Shown piece after piece: positions 1,539 to 11,465 of a DNA stretch of 34,928 nucleotides (position 1 is the first letter of the stretch; each line of letters opens with the position of its first letter). Under the pieces are notes generated by a model. It did no database searches and had not been told where the DNA came from. It was given only the letters and a program-made list of their open reading frames with translations. The position numbers were made by a program, and so were the translations under genes. The stretch is from a virus. The stretch is from IMG/VR virus record IMGVR_UViG_3300020437_000247, positions 1-34,928 of that record. One strand, given 5' to 3'.

Positions 1539-2167
1539 ATCATGAAATTATTTTTGGGGTTCCATTGTTTAGGTATCATCTAGACCCCAGTAAAATAAAG
1601 AGAGATGCAGAAGAAAAATTTAAAGCAAGTCAAGGGTTTCCTATAGATGAAACTCCTGATGGGTGGGACTGCACTCTTAGGAGTGACTTTAATAATAGTT
1701 TAGCAAATGTATATACCAAACATTATGATGGTATCATGGAACAGTTTGGTAAAGATGTAGGATTAGTAAATGGAACTGCTATGATGCATGAGTCATGGTT
1801 AAATTATTATGTCAAAGGTATGAATCAGGAAGAGCATGATCATCTACCATCATTCTATTCTGGAATACATTATATAAAGTTTGATTCTACTGTACATCAA
1901 GCAGTATGTTTAGTGAATCCATTGTTTCAATTATATAATTGTACATATACATTTACTTCTCAAATTTGTAGAGGAGATAATGCATTAAATCATCATCCTT
2001 TTTCTAGACAATACATATCACCAGATGTTAAAGAAGGTGATATATTAATATTCCCATCCTTTTTGAAACATAGAGTTAACAAACAAATGACAGATGTTCC
2101 TAGGATTACCTGTTCATTTAATATAAATACCATCAAGGGATCTACTCGAAGAGTTTATAGTCAATGA
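1535..2167 (+). CDS. 2OG-Fe(II) oxygenase
   Basis: A 210-residue protein of the 2-oxoglutarate/Fe(II)-dependent dioxygenase superfamily, most like the short cyanophage group (2OG-FeII_Oxy_5 type). The facial triad is visible as H101-x-H103 after a W-L-N-Y-Y strand, with distal H179 in the K-H-R-V strand. R190 in P-R-I-T-C-S-F-N is positioned to bind 2-oxoglutarate. Such enzymes hydroxylate proteins, nucleic acids or small molecules; the substrate in cyanophages is unknown. It overlaps both neighbours by 4 bases, placing it in one operon with the preceding unknown protein and the nucleotidyltransferase. It is the first of six members of this superfamily in the window. H-x-H instead of H-x-D is usual for this subgroup. 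Confidence 0.85.
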   Translation: MNHEIIFGVPLFRYHLDPSKIKRDAEEKFKASQGFPIDETPDGWDCTLRSDFNNSLANVYTKHYDGIMEQFGKDVGLVNGTAMMHESWLNYYVKGMNQEEHDHLPSFYSGIHYIKFDSTVHQAVCLVNPLFQLYNCTYTFTSQICRGDNALNHHPFSRQYISPDVKEGDILIFPSFLKHRVNKQMTDVPRITCSFNINTIKGSTRRVYSQ

Positions 2168-3369
2168 AATCATTTGCGACTTTTATATCCGAATCAGTAT
2201 CAAACGCTGCCAAACAAGCCAAGAAACTTGGGTTGAAAGGTGACGGTCATGGTTCGTGGGTTGATCCAAATGGTCGTATTGTCGGACGAACCATCGAAGG
2301 TGAATTAGTATTTAATAGTGGACGCAAACCATCCAAAGGGTCAGACCCTCTCAATCCAGGTGCAGCAGCAAGACAAGCGGTTTCAGAAGTTCCACCGCCA
2401 TCTTCAACGAGTCAAGCACCTGAAGCAGTGCCCGCTGCAGATGAACAAGAACAAGTGGAAAAAACAAGAGGAACGCTTACTCTTGGTTTTGGTCGCTTTA
2501 ACCCACCGACAGCTGGCCACGAGAAACTCCTAGATAAGATTAAAGATACTGCAGAGAGTGGTGCGTACACAGTATACCCATCACATTCTCAGGACAATGA
2601 GAAGAATCCAATAGGTGCAGAGGATAAAGTTCTCTTTATGAAAAAACTTTTTCCTGCACACGCAAGTAATATAGTTTATGACCAATCTATTCGTACAATT
2701 ATTGACGCTTTGACCCATGCCGATGTCCAAGGATACCAATCCATCAATCTCGTGGTTGGCAGTGATAGACAAAAAGAGTTTGAGGGGCTCGCAAATAAGT
2801 ATAACGGGCAACTCTATAATTTTGATGCGATTAATGTTATATCAGCAGGGGACAGGGATCCCGATGCTGAGGGCGTCGAGGGCATGTCTGCTTCCAAACT
2901 TCGAGCTCTAGCAGCAGACGGAGACTTTGAATCATTTAAAAAAGGATTACCTAGAGCAGCAAAAGGTACAGTCGCACAAGAATTATTCAACACAGTTCAG
3001 AAATCTATTGGCAAGAAAGCATTGACCAAAGAAGGTATAGAACTATGGAGGATAGCACCTAAGTTTGATTTCAAAGGACTTAGAGAACAATTTATTGCGG
3101 GAAATGTATTCAACATAGGATCATTAGTAGAAAATCTTAACACAGGATTGATAGGTCGCATCCTTAGAAAGGGTACAAATTATGTGATTGCGGTGACCAA
3201 TGAAGGTATCATGTTTAAGAGTTGGATAAATGATTTAGCAGAGGCAAAAGTTGTTTCTGGAGTGGTCGCATCCAAGAGAGAAGTGGGTACAGAATCTTAC
3301 AGAGAGTATGTACAACAACTAACTCCTATGGAAAAGGTAAGATCATTTATAAATAATAAAAGAAAATAG
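2164..3369 (+). CDS. Nucleotidyltransferase (HIGH superfamily) with capsid-targeting-like N-terminus
   Basis: A 401-residue protein. Residues about 104-270 form a cytidylyltransferase-like domain, with the HIGH-type motif G-R-F-N-P-P-T-A-G-H at 110-119 and the second motif G-M-S-A-S-K-L-R at 240-247 (S-x-S-K). Related enzymes transfer NMP from NTP, releasing pyrophosphate; the acceptor here is unknown. The N-terminus M-K-S-F-A-T-F-I-S-E-S closely resembles the capsid-targeting sequence of T4 internal proteins (M-K-T-Y-Q-E-F-I-A-E-A). Residues 12-100 are low complexity (Ser, Pro, Gln). This suggests an enzyme packaged in the head. It overlaps the upstream oxygenase by 4 bases. A late promoter for the next gene lies inside its 3' end. 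Confidence 0.8.
   Translation: MKSFATFISESVSNAAKQAKKLGLKGDGHGSWVDPNGRIVGRTIEGELVFNSGRKPSKGSDPLNPGAAARQAVSEVPPPSSTSQAPEAVPAADEQEQVEKTRGTLTLGFGRFNPPTAGHEKLLDKIKDTAESGAYTVYPSHSQDNEKNPIGAEDKVLFMKKLFPAHASNIVYDQSIRTIIDALTHADVQGYQSINLVVGSDRQKEFEGLANKYNGQLYNFDAINVISAGDRDPDAEGVEGMSASKLRALAADGDFESFKKGLPRAAKGTVAQELFNTVQKSIGKKALTKEGIELWRIAPKFDFKGLREQFIAGNVFNIGSLVENLNTGLIGRILRKGTNYVIAVTNEGIMFKSWINDLAEAKVVSGVVASKREVGTESYREYVQQLTPMEKVRSFINNKRK
3348..3355 (+). promoter_or_regulatory. T4-type late promoter box TATAAATA
   Basis: An exact TATAAATA, the T4 late promoter -10 consensus read through gp55/gp33/gp45. It sits in the last codons of the nucleotidyltransferase gene, 29 bases before the ATG at 3385. The spacing is almost the same as for the box before 6223. 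It would drive the Lys-rich virion-like module. Confidence 0.6.
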
Positions 3370-3384
3370 TTCTGACTATAAGAG

Positions 3385-4803
3385 ATGAGCAACTTTATTG
3401 AAAAATCAGTGCAAGAAATATTTGATGAAAGCATGGCAAATGCGTTCATCAGAGAAAAGGTTGAACCTGTAGTAGAAGTTGAAGAGACTTTCCGATCTAC
3501 TCTTGCGTCTAGGATGGAGACTGATAGACAAGAAAAGTATGAGGAAGAGCAAAGACTCATCGAGATAGAAGAAAAGAAGATGTATAAAGGTGAGAACGCT
3601 ACTACATCTGATGAAAAGAACAAAGAAATTGTAGAGAAGAGTGTAAAGAATACTATTACAATTAATCCAGATATTAAAGAAACTATTGTTGGTAAGATAT
3701 ATGCAGCATACAATGATAGATATCTTACTGAGAAGAAAGCAAAGAAAGATTATGATGGTGACGGTAAAGTAGAGAGTGGTGCTAAAGAATATCGTGGTGT
3801 TATCCATAATAAAATTCAGCAGAAGAAAGGTGGTAAGGCAGACGGTCAGGATACCTCTAGCGTTAAAGAAGGTATGGCAACTCCTGAGTCTGGTACTGGT
3901 AAGTATTACAGAGAAGGTAAACCAACTGCAAAACAACTTGAGGTAAGAGCTAAACAGGATAAAATTAGAGCAGCTTCCAATAAAGGTAAGATGTATAAGG
4001 AAGAAACTATCGAAGAAAAGAAAGGTAGTCTTAAGCAAGCAAGAAAAAATGTAGGTGCATCTACATGTTGGGATGGATATAAAGCAAAAGGAACTAAGAT
4101 GAAGAATGGTAGATCAGTTCCTAATTGTGTAAAAGAAGAGGAAGTTGACGAGGGAGTATTAGTCAACCTTGCTAAGGGCACAGAGAAAGCTGTGGGTCAA
4201 GGTGTTAAGAAGTTCAACAAATTTGATGCAAAGGTTACTAAGGCAGCAAAGAAACAGGCAGGGAAACTTGCAAAAGGAGCAGGAAAAGTAGCTAAGAAAA
4301 CACTTGCTGCAACAGGAAGAGGAATGGCAGGTGCAGTTGGTGGTGCAATCAAGGGTGCATATCAAGGTGCAAGTAAAGGTGTTAAGAAAGGACTAAAAGA
4401 AACAGCACTAGAAATTCTAGAGAAGAGTAGACTTGCTGCTCTTGAAGAAAAGAAAGGTAGTCTTAAGCAAGCAAGAAAAAATATCGGAATGGATCCTAAT
4501 AAACCATCATGTTGGGATGGTTATAAAGCAACAGGAACTAAGATGAAAGATGGTAGACAAGTTCCTGACTGCAAAAAAGAAGATGTAGCATACGAAAATA
4601 GACAGGTTGCTTACGAACCTGAGAAGCATAAAGATCCAGACGAGTCTGATAAACCATACAGACAGAGATCTAGAGCTGCTAGAATGAGAGATCCAAAGAG
4701 AGGAATTAACTCTCCTGCATTTAAAAAGTTCATGGCAGACAGAGGTATGAGTGCGTCATATGAACCAACACTACCAATGTTGGAGAGTAAAAAAAAACTT
4801 TAA
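3385..4803 (+). CDS. Lys-rich virion-like protein with duplicated K-C-W-D-G-Y cassettes; likely frameshifts into 4797-5237
   Basis: A 472-residue, strongly charged (Lys/Glu) protein. An acidic coiled-coil-like N-terminus (1-110) is followed by D-Y-D-G-D-G-K-V-E-S at 122-131, which resembles an EF-hand Ca-binding loop. Then come two copies of a cassette, K-K-G-S-L-K-Q-A-R-K-N followed by C-W-D-G-Y-K-A and V/P-P-x-C (about 212-250 and 355-395), separated by an Ala/Gly/Lys-rich helical stretch. Similar cassettes occur in marine phage structural or prohead-core proteins, so an internal virion role is likely but inferred. The frame ends at TAA 4801-4803 right after a run of nine A. Coding character continues in the -1 frame to 5237, which would give a protein of about 617 residues. 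It has a T4 late box 29 bases upstream. Confidence 0.75.
   Translation: MSNFIEKSVQEIFDESMANAFIREKVEPVVEVEETFRSTLASRMETDRQEKYEEEQRLIEIEEKKMYKGENATTSDEKNKEIVEKSVKNTITINPDIKETIVGKIYAAYNDRYLTEKKAKKDYDGDGKVESGAKEYRGVIHNKIQQKKGGKADGQDTSSVKEGMATPESGTGKYYREGKPTAKQLEVRAKQDKIRAASNKGKMYKEETIEEKKGSLKQARKNVGASTCWDGYKAKGTKMKNGRSVPNCVKEEEVDEGVLVNLAKGTEKAVGQGVKKFNKFDAKVTKAAKKQAGKLAKGAGKVAKKTLAATGRGMAGAVGGAIKGAYQGASKGVKKGLKETALEILEKSRLAALEEKKGSLKQARKNIGMDPNKPSCWDGYKATGTKMKDGRQVPDCKKEDVAYENRQVAYEPEKHKDPDESDKPYRQRSRAARMRDPKRGINSPAFKKFMADRGMSASYEPTLPMLESKKKL
4012..4482 (+). repeat. Pair of 39-base exact direct repeats (4012-4050 and 4444-4482)
   Basis: The 39 bases at 4012-4050 recur exactly at 4444-4482, starting GAAGAAAAG and ending AAGAAAAAAT. 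They encode E-E-K-K-G-S-L-K-Q-A-R-K-N in the same frame. Similarity continues more loosely downstream through the C-W-D-G-Y-K region, so this is an intragenic duplication of a protein cassette. Exact identity at the DNA level suggests a recent duplication or gene conversion. Confidence 0.9.
4789..4797 (+). other. A9 slippery run: candidate -1 frameshift site (or homopolymer error)
   Basis: Nine consecutive A sit at the end of the 0 frame as AAA AAA AAA CTT TAA. Reading -1 from this run gives an open frame that continues without a stop to 5237. The upstream sequence GGAGAG (4782-4787) is Shine-Dalgarno-like and lies a few bases before the slip site. Stimulatory SD elements of this sort are known for -1 slips on A-rich heptamers (dnaX). 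I see no strong stem-loop just downstream. A missing A in the assembly would look identical. Confidence 0.6.
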
Positions 4804-5237
4804 CGATTGAAGAAGAAGATAAAATCTATCTAGTAAAAGCAAACGAACCTGAGCAAGCATACGAGGTTACAGATCTTGTCGTTGGAGACATATCTGAATT
4901 GAATCGCTATGGAAAAGAAACAGGTAAAGCAACTGGTTCATTGAATAAACCCAAAGGTAGTCCCGTAAAGAAAGGTGGAAGTGGTGACACTGCACTTAAT
5001 TTTGTAAGAAATAAAATTCGTAAAGAAACTGGTAGACCAGAGGGACAACGCAAGAAAGTAAAAGGTGAAAAGAAACAAGAAGGACCTAGTGCGGGAGTAA
5101 GAAAAGCAAGAGAAAAAATAGCAAGGAAAAAAGAAAGCAAAGCGTTAGACGCTAAGGCAAAGAAAGCAGGTTACAAGAGCACACAGGATTATGTTAATGT
5201 AAGAGCAAGATATGGAAGTGGAGGACTTGGATCATGA
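4797..5237 (+). CDS. -1-frame extension of the preceding Lys-rich virion-like protein
   Basis: An open frame of 146 residues in the -1 frame relative to the preceding gene, beginning T-L-T-I-E-E-E-D-K-I-Y-L-V-K. It has no in-frame ATG at all. The only plausible independent start is TTG at 4899, which would give 112 residues and discard a well-behaved coding stretch upstream. The tail is basic, with K-P-K-G-S-P-V-K-K, P-E-G-Q-R-K-K-V-K-G and A-R-E-K-I-A-R-K-K segments, and matches the Lys-rich character of the upstream protein. The simplest reading is one protein made by frameshifting, or a single-base deletion in the run at 4789-4797. Its stop overlaps the next ATG by 4 bases. Confidence 0.65.
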   Translation, partial: TLTIEEEDKIYLVKANEPEQAYEVTDLVVGDISELNRYGKETGKATGSLNKPKGSPVKKGGSGDTALNFVRNKIRKETGRPEGQRKKVKGEKKQEGPSAGVRKAREKIARKKESKALDAKAKKAGYKSTQDYVNVRARYGSGGLGS

Positions 5238-5959
5238 TCAATGAAGTAGCACCTCCTACCGCAAAACATGAGAGAATGGTAAAGCACATTAAAAAATCTT
5301 ATAAAAAAGATGGTAAGTTAACTGATGATGAAAAATCAATTGCTTATGCTACTGCATGGAAGAACTATAATAAAGAAGAAGTAATACCAGAGGCAAAGGT
5401 AGATAAGGGTAAATCCGATTATGCTAAACAAAATGAAAGAAACCAAAGAACATTTGGTAATAGAAGAGGATCTAGAGGTAGTTTGGCATCACACGATGAC
5501 ACAGAGGCAAGAAGATATAATACTAAAAAAAGTAGAGGTGTGAAAATGAGAGGGAAGAAGGATAAAACACCAGTAAATTATCACAAAAAAGATAGTCAAG
5601 CTCGTGTTGATGCTCTTCTCAAGAGTATGAAAGAAGAAGTGGTTAATGAGATTGCAATGAAAAAAGATAAGAAGATTCCTCTTGGAAGAACTAGTAATCC
5701 TTATGGTAAAAGAGCAGTTTTAAAAATGATTATTAAATCTATGGCAGAAAGAGAAAGGTCAAGAGCAGGTGTTACAAAAGAAACAACTGATCTACATTAT
5801 GAATTAATTAACAAAGCAAAAGAAAAATATGATGCAGCAAAAAAGAAGAAAAAATTTAAAGATTTTACCTCTCAAGCAAACGCTTCAAGAAAGAAAGTTA
5901 AGTTCTATGATAAGAAGGGAAGCGGTTACATTGTAAAGGGTAAGAAAAAGTACGATTAA
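5234..5959 (+). CDS. Lys-rich virion-like protein
   Basis: A 241-residue, highly basic protein. The N-terminus holds a helical module (residues 5-46: A-K-H-E-R-M-V-K-H-I-K-K-S-Y-x-K-x-G-K-L, ending A-I/Y-A-T-A-W-K) seen repeatedly in cyanophage structural-type proteins. Residues about 54-105 (E-A-K-V-D, then G-N-R-R-G-S-R-G-S-L-A, then R-G-V-K) match a cassette inside the 787-residue protein at 13425-15788. The C-terminal third is a Lys-rich helix ending in I-V-K-G-K-K-K-Y-D. No enzyme motif is visible. It starts at an ATGA overlap with the frame before it, so it is probably translationally coupled. An internal or core virion protein is the best guess. Confidence 0.65.
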   Translation: MINEVAPPTAKHERMVKHIKKSYKKDGKLTDDEKSIAYATAWKNYNKEEVIPEAKVDKGKSDYAKQNERNQRTFGNRRGSRGSLASHDDTEARRYNTKKSRGVKMRGKKDKTPVNYHKKDSQARVDALLKSMKEEVVNEIAMKKDKKIPLGRTSNPYGKRAVLKMIIKSMAERERSRAGVTKETTDLHYELINKAKEKYDAAKKKKKFKDFTSQANASRKKVKFYDKKGSGYIVKGKKKYD

Positions 5960-5991: not shown

Positions 5992-6177
5992 ATGACTAAA
6001 TTTTTACTACCTATCGCAATCAATGTTATTAATAAAGCGGTAGACAAGATCCCAGAGGATCTAGAAGATAAACTAAAGCAGTTTGTTATTGGTATTCTTA
6101 AAAAAGCAGCAGCTAAATCTGGTAACAAAGTAGATGATAAACTAGTGGAAGCACTAGAGAAAGCACTACTAGGTTAG
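5992..6177 (+). CDS. Small amphipathic helical protein, unknown
   Basis: A 61-residue protein with no recognised family. The sequence predicts two or three helices: an N-terminal hydrophobic one (F-L-L-P-I-A-I-N-V-I-N-K), a central one (L-E-D-K-L-K-Q-F-V-I-G-I-L-K-K) and a C-terminal one (L-V-E-A-L-E-K-A-L-L). The regular hydrophobic spacing suggests an amphipathic, perhaps oligomeric or membrane-surface protein. It lies 32 bases after the Lys-rich gene and just before a T4 late box, so it probably ends the upstream transcription unit. Its short length lowers confidence, but codon use matches its neighbours. Confidence 0.55.
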   Translation: MTKFLLPIAINVINKAVDKIPEDLEDKLKQFVIGILKKAAAKSGNKVDDKLVEALEKALLG

Positions 6178-9162: not shown

Positions 9163-11465
9163 GTAACGGAACTAATGTTCGTAAGAGATCAGGAAGTGTA
9201 GAGTCACTCGATCTTAATAAGATGCATAAGATAGTTGACGAGGCATGTAAAGATCTTGCAGGAGTATCAGCAAGTCAGGTTGAGATAAACTCTGGCATAC
9301 AGTTCTATGATGGGATTACCACAGCAGAAATACAAGAGATACTTATCAAAAGTGCAAGTGATCTAATAGAATTAGAGTCTCCAAACTATCAGTTCGTTGC
9401 TGCTAGACTATTATTATTTGGTGTCAGGAAAAAATTATGGGGTAGAATCCATGAAGCACCATCTCTAGGAAATCATATAACCAAATGTATAAGAGAGGGT
9501 GTATATGATTCTCATTTTACAAGTAAATATACAGACCAAGAGATAGATGAACTAGACTCTTACATAGACCACGATAGAGATTACCTGTTTACTTACGCAG
9601 GTCTTCGTCAGGTCACCGATAAATATCTCGTACAAGACCGTAGCACAGGAGATCTATACGAAACTCCTCAGTTCATGTATATCATGATTGCTGCTACGAT
9701 GTTTTCAGAATACCCTAAAGAAACTAGACTCGATTATGTCAAACGCTACTACGACGCAATCTCCAGACACAGAATCAACATCCCAACACCAGTCATGGGC
9801 GGTGTCAGAACACCCATTCGTCAATTTGCATCTTGTGTTCTGGTTGATATTGATGACACCCTCGATAGTATCTTTAGCAGTGATATGGCTATTGGCAAAT
9901 ATGTCGCACAGAGGGCTGGTATCGGTATTAACGCAGGGAGAATCCGTGGGATCAACAGTAAAATCAGGGGTGGAGAAGTTCAACATACAGGTGTTGTCCC
10001 CTTCCTTAAAAAGTTCGAGGCAACTGTCAGATGCTGTACTCAAAACGGCATCAGAGGTGGTTCAGCAACAGTCCACTTTCCTATCTGGCACAAAGAAATC
10101 CGTGACATCATTGTTCTCAAAAATAACAAAGGGACAGAGGACAACAGAGTAAGAAAACTAGACTACTCGATACAATTATCTAAATTATTCTATGAAAGGT
10201 TTATCGAAAATAAAGAAATCACGCTTTTTTCCCCTCATGATGTTCCTGATTTGTATGAGAATTTTGGGACCGATAGGTTTGATGAGTTATATTGCAGTTA
10301 CGAATTGGATGAATCAATCCCCAGAACCACAGTCAACGCTCAAGAACTAATCCTTGACCTATTAAAAGAGAGAGCAGAGACAGGTAGAATATATTTGATG
10401 AACATGGATCATGTCAATAGTCATAGTTCATTTAAGGATAAAGTAGAGATGAGTAACCTCTGTCAGGAGATAACTCTACCTACAACACCACTACAACACA
10501 TAGATGATCGTGATGGTGAGATTGCTTTGTGCATATTATCTGCTATAAATGTAGGAACTCTAAGAAATCTTGATCAACTTGAGGAATTATGTGACTTATC
10601 TGTTCGTGGATTAGATGCTTTGATTGATTTTCAAGGTTATCCTGTCAAGGCAGCAGAGATAGGAACCATAAATCGTAGGTCACTTGGTATTGGGTACATT
10701 GGGTTGGCACATTACCTTGCCAAGCATCATGTATCTTATGATGATCCAAAGGCATGGGAGTTGGTTCATGACCTTACAGAAGCGTTTCAATACTATTTAC
10801 TGAAGGCATCAAATCAACTTGCAAAAGAGCAAGGAAAGTGTGGATATTTTGACAAAACAAAGTATGCTGATGGAATACTTCCAATTGATACATATAAGAA
10901 GGATGTAGATGAGATTGTACAGAACAATTTAAAATATGATTGGTCATCTCTTAGGGATTCTATCAGAGAGTTCGGATTACGGAACTCAACATTGTCCGCA
11001 CAGATGCCATCGGAGAGCAGTTCCGTTGTGTCTAACGCAACAAACGGAATCGAACCCCCTAGGGGATACTTGTCCATTAAGAAGTCCAAGAAAGGTCCTC
11101 TTAAGCAAATTGTTCCGTCTTATCAATCGTTGAAATCATATTATACTTTGTTATGGGAAATGAAAGGCAATGATGGTTACATCAAAGTTGTCTCTGTTAT
11201 GCAAAAGTTCTTTGACCAAGCAATTAGTGGCAACTGGAGTTACAATCCAGAGAACTACCCTGACAATGAAGTACCTGTGACAGTAATGGCACAAGACTTC
11301 TTAACTACATTTAAGTATGGGTGGAAGACATCTTATTATCAGAACACATATGATAACAAAACTGACGAAGTAGAAGTAGAAGAAGATAAATCACAAGAAT
11401 GTACATTAGACAACTTACTAGACAACCTATCAACCGCCAATGAATGCGATGCCTGTGCAATCTAA
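9159..11465 (+). CDS. nrdA: Ribonucleoside-diphosphate reductase, class Ia alpha subunit
   Basis: A 768-residue large subunit that reduces ribonucleoside diphosphates to deoxy forms for phage DNA synthesis. An N-terminal ATP-cone-like region (residues about 5-90, R-K-R-S-G-S-V-E onward) is followed by the barrel. C226 and C458 match the E. coli redox pair C225/C462. N433-x-C435-x-E437 matches the N437/C439/E441 active site with the thiyl cysteine. The motif T-Q-N-G-I-R-G-G-S-A-T binds substrate. S-Y-Q-S-L-K-S-Y-Y-T near residue 660 carries the radical-transfer tyrosines. The C-terminal C763-x-x-C766 is the shuttle pair. All key residues are present, so it looks functional. It overlaps the upstream oxygenase by 4 bases and precedes nrdB by 10. 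Confidence 0.97.
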   Translation: MSNGTNVRKRSGSVESLDLNKMHKIVDEACKDLAGVSASQVEINSGIQFYDGITTAEIQEILIKSASDLIELESPNYQFVAARLLLFGVRKKLWGRIHEAPSLGNHITKCIREGVYDSHFTSKYTDQEIDELDSYIDHDRDYLFTYAGLRQVTDKYLVQDRSTGDLYETPQFMYIMIAATMFSEYPKETRLDYVKRYYDAISRHRINIPTPVMGGVRTPIRQFASCVLVDIDDTLDSIFSSDMAIGKYVAQRAGIGINAGRIRGINSKIRGGEVQHTGVVPFLKKFEATVRCCTQNGIRGGSATVHFPIWHKEIRDIIVLKNNKGTEDNRVRKLDYSIQLSKLFYERFIENKEITLFSPHDVPDLYENFGTDRFDELYCSYELDESIPRTTVNAQELILDLLKERAETGRIYLMNMDHVNSHSSFKDKVEMSNLCQEITLPTTPLQHIDDRDGEIALCILSAINVGTLRNLDQLEELCDLSVRGLDALIDFQGYPVKAAEIGTINRRSLGIGYIGLAHYLAKHHVSYDDPKAWELVHDLTEAFQYYLLKASNQLAKEQGKCGYFDKTKYADGILPIDTYKKDVDEIVQNNLKYDWSSLRDSIREFGLRNSTLSAQMPSESSSVVSNATNGIEPPRGYLSIKKSKKGPLKQIVPSYQSLKSYYTLLWEMKGNDGYIKVVSVMQKFFDQAISGNWSYNPENYPDNEVPVTVMAQDFLTTFKYGWKTSYYQNTYDNKTDEVEVEEDKSQECTLDNLLDNLSTANECDACAI

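Follow-up and report, generated by a model that had tools for sequence, protein, structure and literature searches.

Why should a long reading frame without a start codon follow directly, and out of phase, on a gene that ends in a run of A? In the stretch of viral DNA analysed here (the window, from an IMG/VR virus record, 34,928 nt, 36% GC), an ORF at 3385..4803 on the plus strand, where the other window features described below also lie, encodes a Lys-rich, modular protein of 472 aa. The 3' end of this ORF reads GAG AGT AAA AAA AAA CTT TAA, so that the product ends in SKKKL. The run consists of exactly nine A (4789..4797), read as three AAA codons in the 0 frame, and the stop codon TAA at 4801..4803 is the second codon 3' of it. 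When the last A is reread, the -1 frame continues from 4797 as ACT TTA ACG ATT GAA and stays open for 146 codons, up to the TGA at 5235-5237. This extension (4797..5237) encodes a segment that begins with TLTIEEEDKIYLVKA, followed by a C-terminal module of the form LNRYGKETGKATGS...GGLGS, and the fused product of both frames would have 617 aa. The extension contains no ATG at all, and its first potential start among ATG, GTG and TTG is the TTG at 4899, which lies 98 nt beyond the 0-frame stop. The slippery heptamer A_AAA_AAA lies in phase within 4789-4797, 5' of that stop. Since the -1 frame has a TAA of its own at 4788..4790, the frame change is possible solely inside the A-run (4791-4800). 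The next gene, again Lys-rich (5234..5959), starts at an ATGA that overlaps the stop of the extension. The features that the first-pass annotation had read from the window, namely nine A, 146 open codons in the -1 frame with no ATG among them, and potential protein forms of 472 and 617 aa, are thus all confirmed in the sequence.

Taken alone, these features are not compelling. The A9 run is the sole A or T run of at least nine in the window, with about 1.3 runs of at least nine A expected. The non-coding frames of eight window genes contain 730 open stretches with a mean of 9 and a maximum of 154 codons, and an open frame of 146 codons is, by length alone, long but not impossible, and only suggestive. 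Nor is there anything special about the run itself, since the family is Lys-rich and AT-rich and has in-frame runs of at least nine A as well. As the run is not rare and the length of the open frame is not decisive, the case rests on relatives.

A protein search with the extension identified 58 relatives. In the closest ones, the upstream ORF ends in an A-run and CTY TAA, and the downstream frame (KKTLTIEE...) lacks a start. A search of IMG/VR with the TLTIEE segment yielded 16 loci. In 13 of these, TLTIEE is found in the -1 phase directly 3' of A9, A10 or A12, the 0-frame TAA comes at most two codons after the run (as CTT, CTC or CCT TAA, or as TAA straight after A12), and there is no start codon within 45 nt past the stop. 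The run is A9 in the group of the window, A10 preceded by TTT in L103-L106, A12 in L109 and L110, and A9 in L111 and L112. The boundary between the -1-frame TAA and the seven A that follow it in the window recurs in L097-L101, L111 and L112. The three other loci have TLTIEE in frame, either behind A9 (L107, L108) or downstream of an earlier -1 junction at A10 (L102, the same virus as L012). When L103/L104 and L111/L112, pairs of identical sequences from separate samples, are each counted once, 11 distinct -1 sequences remain, the window included. With a DNA pattern open to any run of A5 or longer, family members turned up with A9 or A10 only, and none with a run shorter than nine.

Within each lineage, the length of the run is constant despite divergence (A9 in 6/6, A10 in 4/4, A12 in 2/2 and A9 in 2/2). 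The window and L103 are separated by a dS of about 1.1, which is synonymous divergence near saturation, and still share the phase and length conservation of the run. The modules 5' of the run are unrelated between lineages (ESKKK, DLKKK, VEAKKK, AAAKKKK, EAKKKK), and the run, the phase and TLTIEE are retained; this shuffling around the site is observed directly. L097 (473 codons), L098, L100 and L101 have equal or shorter sets of modules, with the same junction at the end. Where the phase differs between lineages, this is due to the flanking codons and not to the length of the run. Among the 29 distinct runs of at least nine A in Lys-rich ORFs of the family, 18 are in frame, 11 are at -1 and none is at +1. 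Random indels should yield both out-of-frame states, and the +1 state could be rescued only through a deletion or through two insertions. Relatedness among the 11 sequences reduces them to about 5-7 origins; with this number of origins, the probability that all are -1 by chance is about 0.01-0.03. In comparison with its relatives, the junction is lifted by its conservation far above chance, and a private mutation of the window, which we considered, was rejected, since 11 distinct sequences keep the run in the -1 phase.

Selection points in the same direction. In the 48 codons that precede any possible start, pN/pS is 0.009/0.333 for the window and L101, 0.009/0.185 for the window and L098, 0.072/0.392 for L105 and L106, and 0.070/0.465 for L106 and L109, and nearly all pairs show far less nonsynonymous than synonymous change. 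The pair L109/L110 is an exception and gives no signal over these few pre-start codons (0.121/0.133), but a clear one over the whole extension (0.075/0.424). Purifying selection upstream of any start implies that the region is translated in the -1 frame.

We therefore return to the initial question with a fairly confident answer, which is nevertheless drawn from sequence comparison. The A9 run is most likely a programmed slippage site that has been conserved, and from it a 472-aa protein and a 617-aa form, likely of a head polyprotein, would be made. The run, its phase, its conservation and the purifying selection are observed. That slippage occurs, by which route and with what efficiency, is inferred, and there are no transcript, reporter or peptide data. 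The majority of transcripts or ribosomes would follow AAA AAA AAA CTT TAA and yield the 472-aa protein. In a minority, one A would be gained in the mRNA by slippage of the RNA polymerase, which is the route that we prefer, or the ribosome would move back by one base. The shifted reading AAA AAA AAA ACT TTA ACG ATT GAA would then lead to the 617-aa form with the TLTIEE segment and the LNRYGKETGK...GGLGS module. Slippage would in this way keep the C-terminal module sub-stoichiometric, at a set ratio to the remainder of the Lys-rich polyprotein. The extension out of frame that the first-pass annotation had proposed is borne out by phase, run and purifying selection in the 11 distinct sequences and by the parallel junctions described below. 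Comparison of homologues for a conserved A-run, which it had put forward as a check, shows A9, A10 or A12 kept in the -1 phase, and the tenth A that it had named as refutation, because it would make a plain fused gene, is absent from close relatives, which also have nine.

It is less clear how the frame is changed. At the A9 and A10 sites, no stable downstream structure above shuffles was found by hairpin folding, which does not cover pseudoknots; the downstream folding z-scores are -0.27 for the window (4798-4870), +0.31 for L010, +0.61 for L074 and -0.67 for L005. A hairpin stimulator was detected only at relatives with another type of junction (cassette B, below), not at the A-run sites tested. 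An SD-like GGAGAG, previously suggested to stimulate the slip, is indeed present directly 5' of the run (4782..4787), but is not conserved, its counterparts in relatives being TCGAGAG, TAGAGAG, GTGGAAG and GAGGATTT. The absence of a canonical stimulator at the A9 site counts against programmed slippage. AAA fills all three codons of the run, and runs of nine A or T are known to be long enough for efficient slippage of RNA polymerase (PMC5009743). As there is no stable hairpin, the SD-like element is not conserved and the run is long enough, slippage of the RNA polymerase is favoured for A9. Of the -1 frameshift envisaged in the first-pass annotation, the frame change at the run has stood up; a ribosomal route is less secure, since without downstream structure polymerase slippage is at least as likely. 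From the sequence features listed, we lean slightly towards transcriptional slippage over a purely ribosomal shift at the window site, and both may coexist.

A shift without any part for the polymerase, by a tandem tRNA-Lys slip on A_AAA_AAA in the absence of a strong stimulator, remains a possibility, to which we give distinctly less weight. Slips of this kind are found in IS elements and at dnaX-like sites. The heptamer is in phase in the window, as is U_UUA_AAA in L103-L106, and the combination of A_AAA_AAG and a hairpin in other members of the family is clearly of the ribosomal type. Apart from the missing downstream structure and the lack of conservation of the SD-like element, the retention of pure A9-A12 where a short heptamer would do is difficult to reconcile with this explanation.

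It could also be argued that the -1 state is merely tolerated damage: an indel in the A-run would have shifted the module out of frame, with enough product rescued through infidelity of the polymerase, and without benefit or regulation. Rescue of frame damage by polymerase infidelity is known for poly(A) tracts in endosymbionts. An indel in the in-frame A9 runs of relatives could create the -1 state, and the only out-of-frame states seen are those that one extra A rescues. However, given how often homopolymers gain or lose bases, reversion of a deleterious -1 state would be expected, whereas phase and length persist up to the window/L103 divergence (dS about 1.1) and through exchange of modules. 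Moreover, the hairpin-type junctions carry dedicated RNA structure. We find this scenario rather improbable as a full account, but sequence alone does not tell regulation of the slip from mere tolerance.

Phase variation, with replication slippage altering the length of the run and toggling the extension in the population, appears very unlikely. In-frame (L107, L108) and -1 versions do share the run length, as this would allow, but the run is constant within lineages, the phase is set by flanking codons and there are no +1 states. A phase-variable contingency locus was rejected, there being no variation of run length among close relatives. Still less credible is a separate downstream gene, on which ribosomes would reinitiate past the TAA from a cryptic non-AUG start (e.g. 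ATT at 4806). In its favour, the C-terminal module is a stand-alone gene that starts at an ATG in the cyanophages P-SSM4, P-SSM7 and P-RSM1. Yet none of the -1 relatives has an ATG, GTG or TTG within 45 nt past the stop, relatives have ATT, ATA or GTT at the Ile position, and spacing and context differ in L109/L110. The earlier view that the extension is not a separate gene holds for the cassette relatives, in which an independent start is not conserved. Finally, the loss of one A from a plain fused gene in sequencing or assembly, raised in the first-pass annotation as giving the same picture, can practically be dismissed in spite of the error-prone nature of homopolymers, as the identical run and phase are present in distinct contigs from about ten metagenomes.

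Further junctions of the same polarity are present in the family. A mechanical detector of -1 overlaps, run on the coding strand of all loci, found additional -1 junctions at A10 (L012 2790-2812) and A11 (L015/L016 near 2690-2715), each in one lineage only, and no +1 cases in family genes. In L154 (MH319730.1, single-cell virus AG-345-D19), Lys-rich ORFs of 326 and 417 codons are joined in -1 at GCA AAA AAG CAA AAA AGG (A_AAA_AAG), and IMG/VR contains no match with the same junction. The junction of cassette B occurs at loci with an ERLGGKGY module, in four upstream contexts (L091 about 10268-10300; L092, L119, L120, L129). It consists of a codon ending in A, AAA AAG, one further codon, TAA, and the hairpin GCCCRATT-N7-RATTGGGC. 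The hairpin has 8 bp and begins six bases 3' of the A_AAA_AAG heptamer, with the 0-frame stop in the 6-nt spacer; in L091 it folds at -14.4 kcal/mol (z -2.0). The 3' arm requires the codons TTG GGC, and the bases that build the hairpin are synonymous choices confined to the shift modules. These codons and the 5' arm GCCCRAT are found together in 4/4 shift modules, and the 5' arm is found in 0/29 other ERLGGKGY modules (Fisher 2.4e-5, ignoring relatedness). A scan of IMG/VR for the whole signal returned cassette B contigs and no others. Judged by heptamer, spacing and predicted fold, cassette B is a textbook dnaX-like signal with a stem-loop selected at the RNA level, and it is the best sequence evidence of genuine -1 recoding in the family. 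Because of the hairpin, ribosomal -1 frameshifting is favoured at these A6G sites, which are observed alongside the A-runs. It is an even question whether the frame-change signals are exchangeable joining cassettes, which may move with the downstream module in shuffled head-interior polyproteins and fix a low C-terminal dose, two unrelated recoding mechanisms having converged in one family.

All TLTIEE cassette loci are metagenome contigs. The cassette is absent from the approximately 216 kb of homologous regions scanned in isolate phages, one metagenome-assembled phage genome and single-cell virus records, where only ambiguous A6G overlaps (P-HM2, S-CAM3) and the one single-cell contig junction were seen. 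In P-HM2 (PHM2_164/165, L163 near 6145-6156), the gene end GAA AAA AAG CAA TAG has an overlapping -1 ORF, and the same is true for the gene end GAA AAA AAG TGA in S-CAM3 (T040910_181/182, L160 near 6570). These overlaps could reflect either -1 recoding or plain overlapping starts.

The junctions resemble known recoding sites only in part. Like the window, Thermus thermophilus dnaX has a run of nine, needs no RNA structure and gives two products that differ C-terminally (PMC5009743). Among dnaX genes with slippage, it varies whether the long product comes from the 0 frame or from the shift (PMC5009743). The in-frame A9 of L107/L108, behind which each of the two remaining frames is closed immediately or by about the eighth codon, mirrors the role reversal known for dnaX genes (PMC5009743). 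Unlike Thermus dnaX, the window encodes a phage modular Lys-rich protein, with an extension that would be reached by the shift rather than as unshifted product. Cassette B shares A_AAA_AAG and a stem-loop (GCCCRATT/RATTGGGC) with the -1 site of the E. coli dnaX type, but its shift extends the protein whereas the shift in E. coli dnaX truncates it; the window A9 has no hairpin. The lambda G/GT tail-assembly chaperone is similar in being a structural-type phage gene in which a -1 shift adds a C-terminal extension to a minor fraction. However, no homology to it was found, and the window gene is not beside a tape-measure gene. In tailed phages, recoding is described mainly for tail chaperones, capsid proteins and few others. 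In the literature on frameshifting or slippage in cyanophages, as far as its text is open access, we found no description of such a junction.

What is the protein for? ORF 3385..4803, a gene of a marine T4-like cyanophage, sits between genes for a cytidylyltransferase (2164..3369, family T4-GC190) and for DNA primase/NrdA. T4-like cyanophages such as P-SSM4, P-SSM7, P-TIM40 and S-SZBM1 have a matching neighbourhood, and the protein family at this locus is variable among them. Pfam has no family for the ORF or the extension; in PHROGs, the ORF belongs to unknown-function families only and the extension to none. The AlphaFold model of the extension is of low confidence (mean pLDDT 57). A clue comes from the module boundaries. 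The motif [VILFM]xE precedes 53/53 module starts of the LNR type and 39/39 of the RLGGKGY type, compared to a background of 2.1% per position; this is a motif only, without cleavage data, and the modules GLDGK and TLTIE lack a preceding hydrophobic-x-E. The T4 prohead protease gp21 cuts after L/I-x-E (PMC9026906). As module starts follow hydrophobic-x-E, like T4 gp21 sites, we regard the product as a probable head-interior protein that is processed, and by this analogy a Lys-rich polyprotein probably enters the phage head and is cut into pieces, although there are no cleavage or virion data for it, and both location and cleavage are inferred. One of these hydrophobic-x-E sites (fused residues 503-505) lies in GDISE|LNRY, where a cut would free the C-terminal module, and the slip would set the dose of the last piece of a head polyprotein.

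The N termini are compatible with this proposal to varying degrees. Many genes of the family and its neighbours begin with MK(S/T/N)F..F(I/L)xE, among them that of the window cytidylyltransferase. In the T4 capsid-targeting sequence, residues 4 and 7 serve targeting, and residues 8 and 10 processing. With aromatic residues at 4 and 7 and I/L-x-E at 8-10, N termini of the family or its neighbours agree with these determinants, and MKSFATFISE of the cytidylyltransferase fits those of T4 internal proteins. MSNFIEKSVQE of ORF 3385..4803 is a poorer fit. On the strength of the motif, such N termini could mark head-packaged cyanophage proteins. T4-GC190, the cytidylyltransferase family, has been found in S-SM1 virions (PMC3037559), and the designation of the window protein as virion-like in the first-pass annotation gains from this and from the motifs indirect support only. 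The family resembles the gp21-processed internal head and core proteins of T4 in having hydrophobic-x-E at module starts, but no sequence homology to them has been shown, and it is modular and built of multiple repeats. We know of no frameshift junctions in T4 internal proteins.

If the preferred reading of the A9 run as a programmed slippage site is true, recoding would act as a dosage device for polyproteins that likely fill the head, or are injected from it. It would also account for split or 'hypothetical' ORFs in cyanophage annotations. The family offers a paired natural test, with in-frame and -1 versions on the one hand, and A-run and hairpin versions on the other hand.

In many relatives, a continuous ORF has a module of the LNRY...GGLGS type as its C terminus, and in the isolate P-TIM68 such a module ends an ORF of 1006 aa. 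A separate observation concerns a P-SSM4 gene (L004 3135-3725), which is a single ORF with an A8 run. Its counterpart in P-SSM3 (L003 3135-3970, PRAG_00072/73) is split into two frames near the run, which could be due to mutation, to error or to a slip site.
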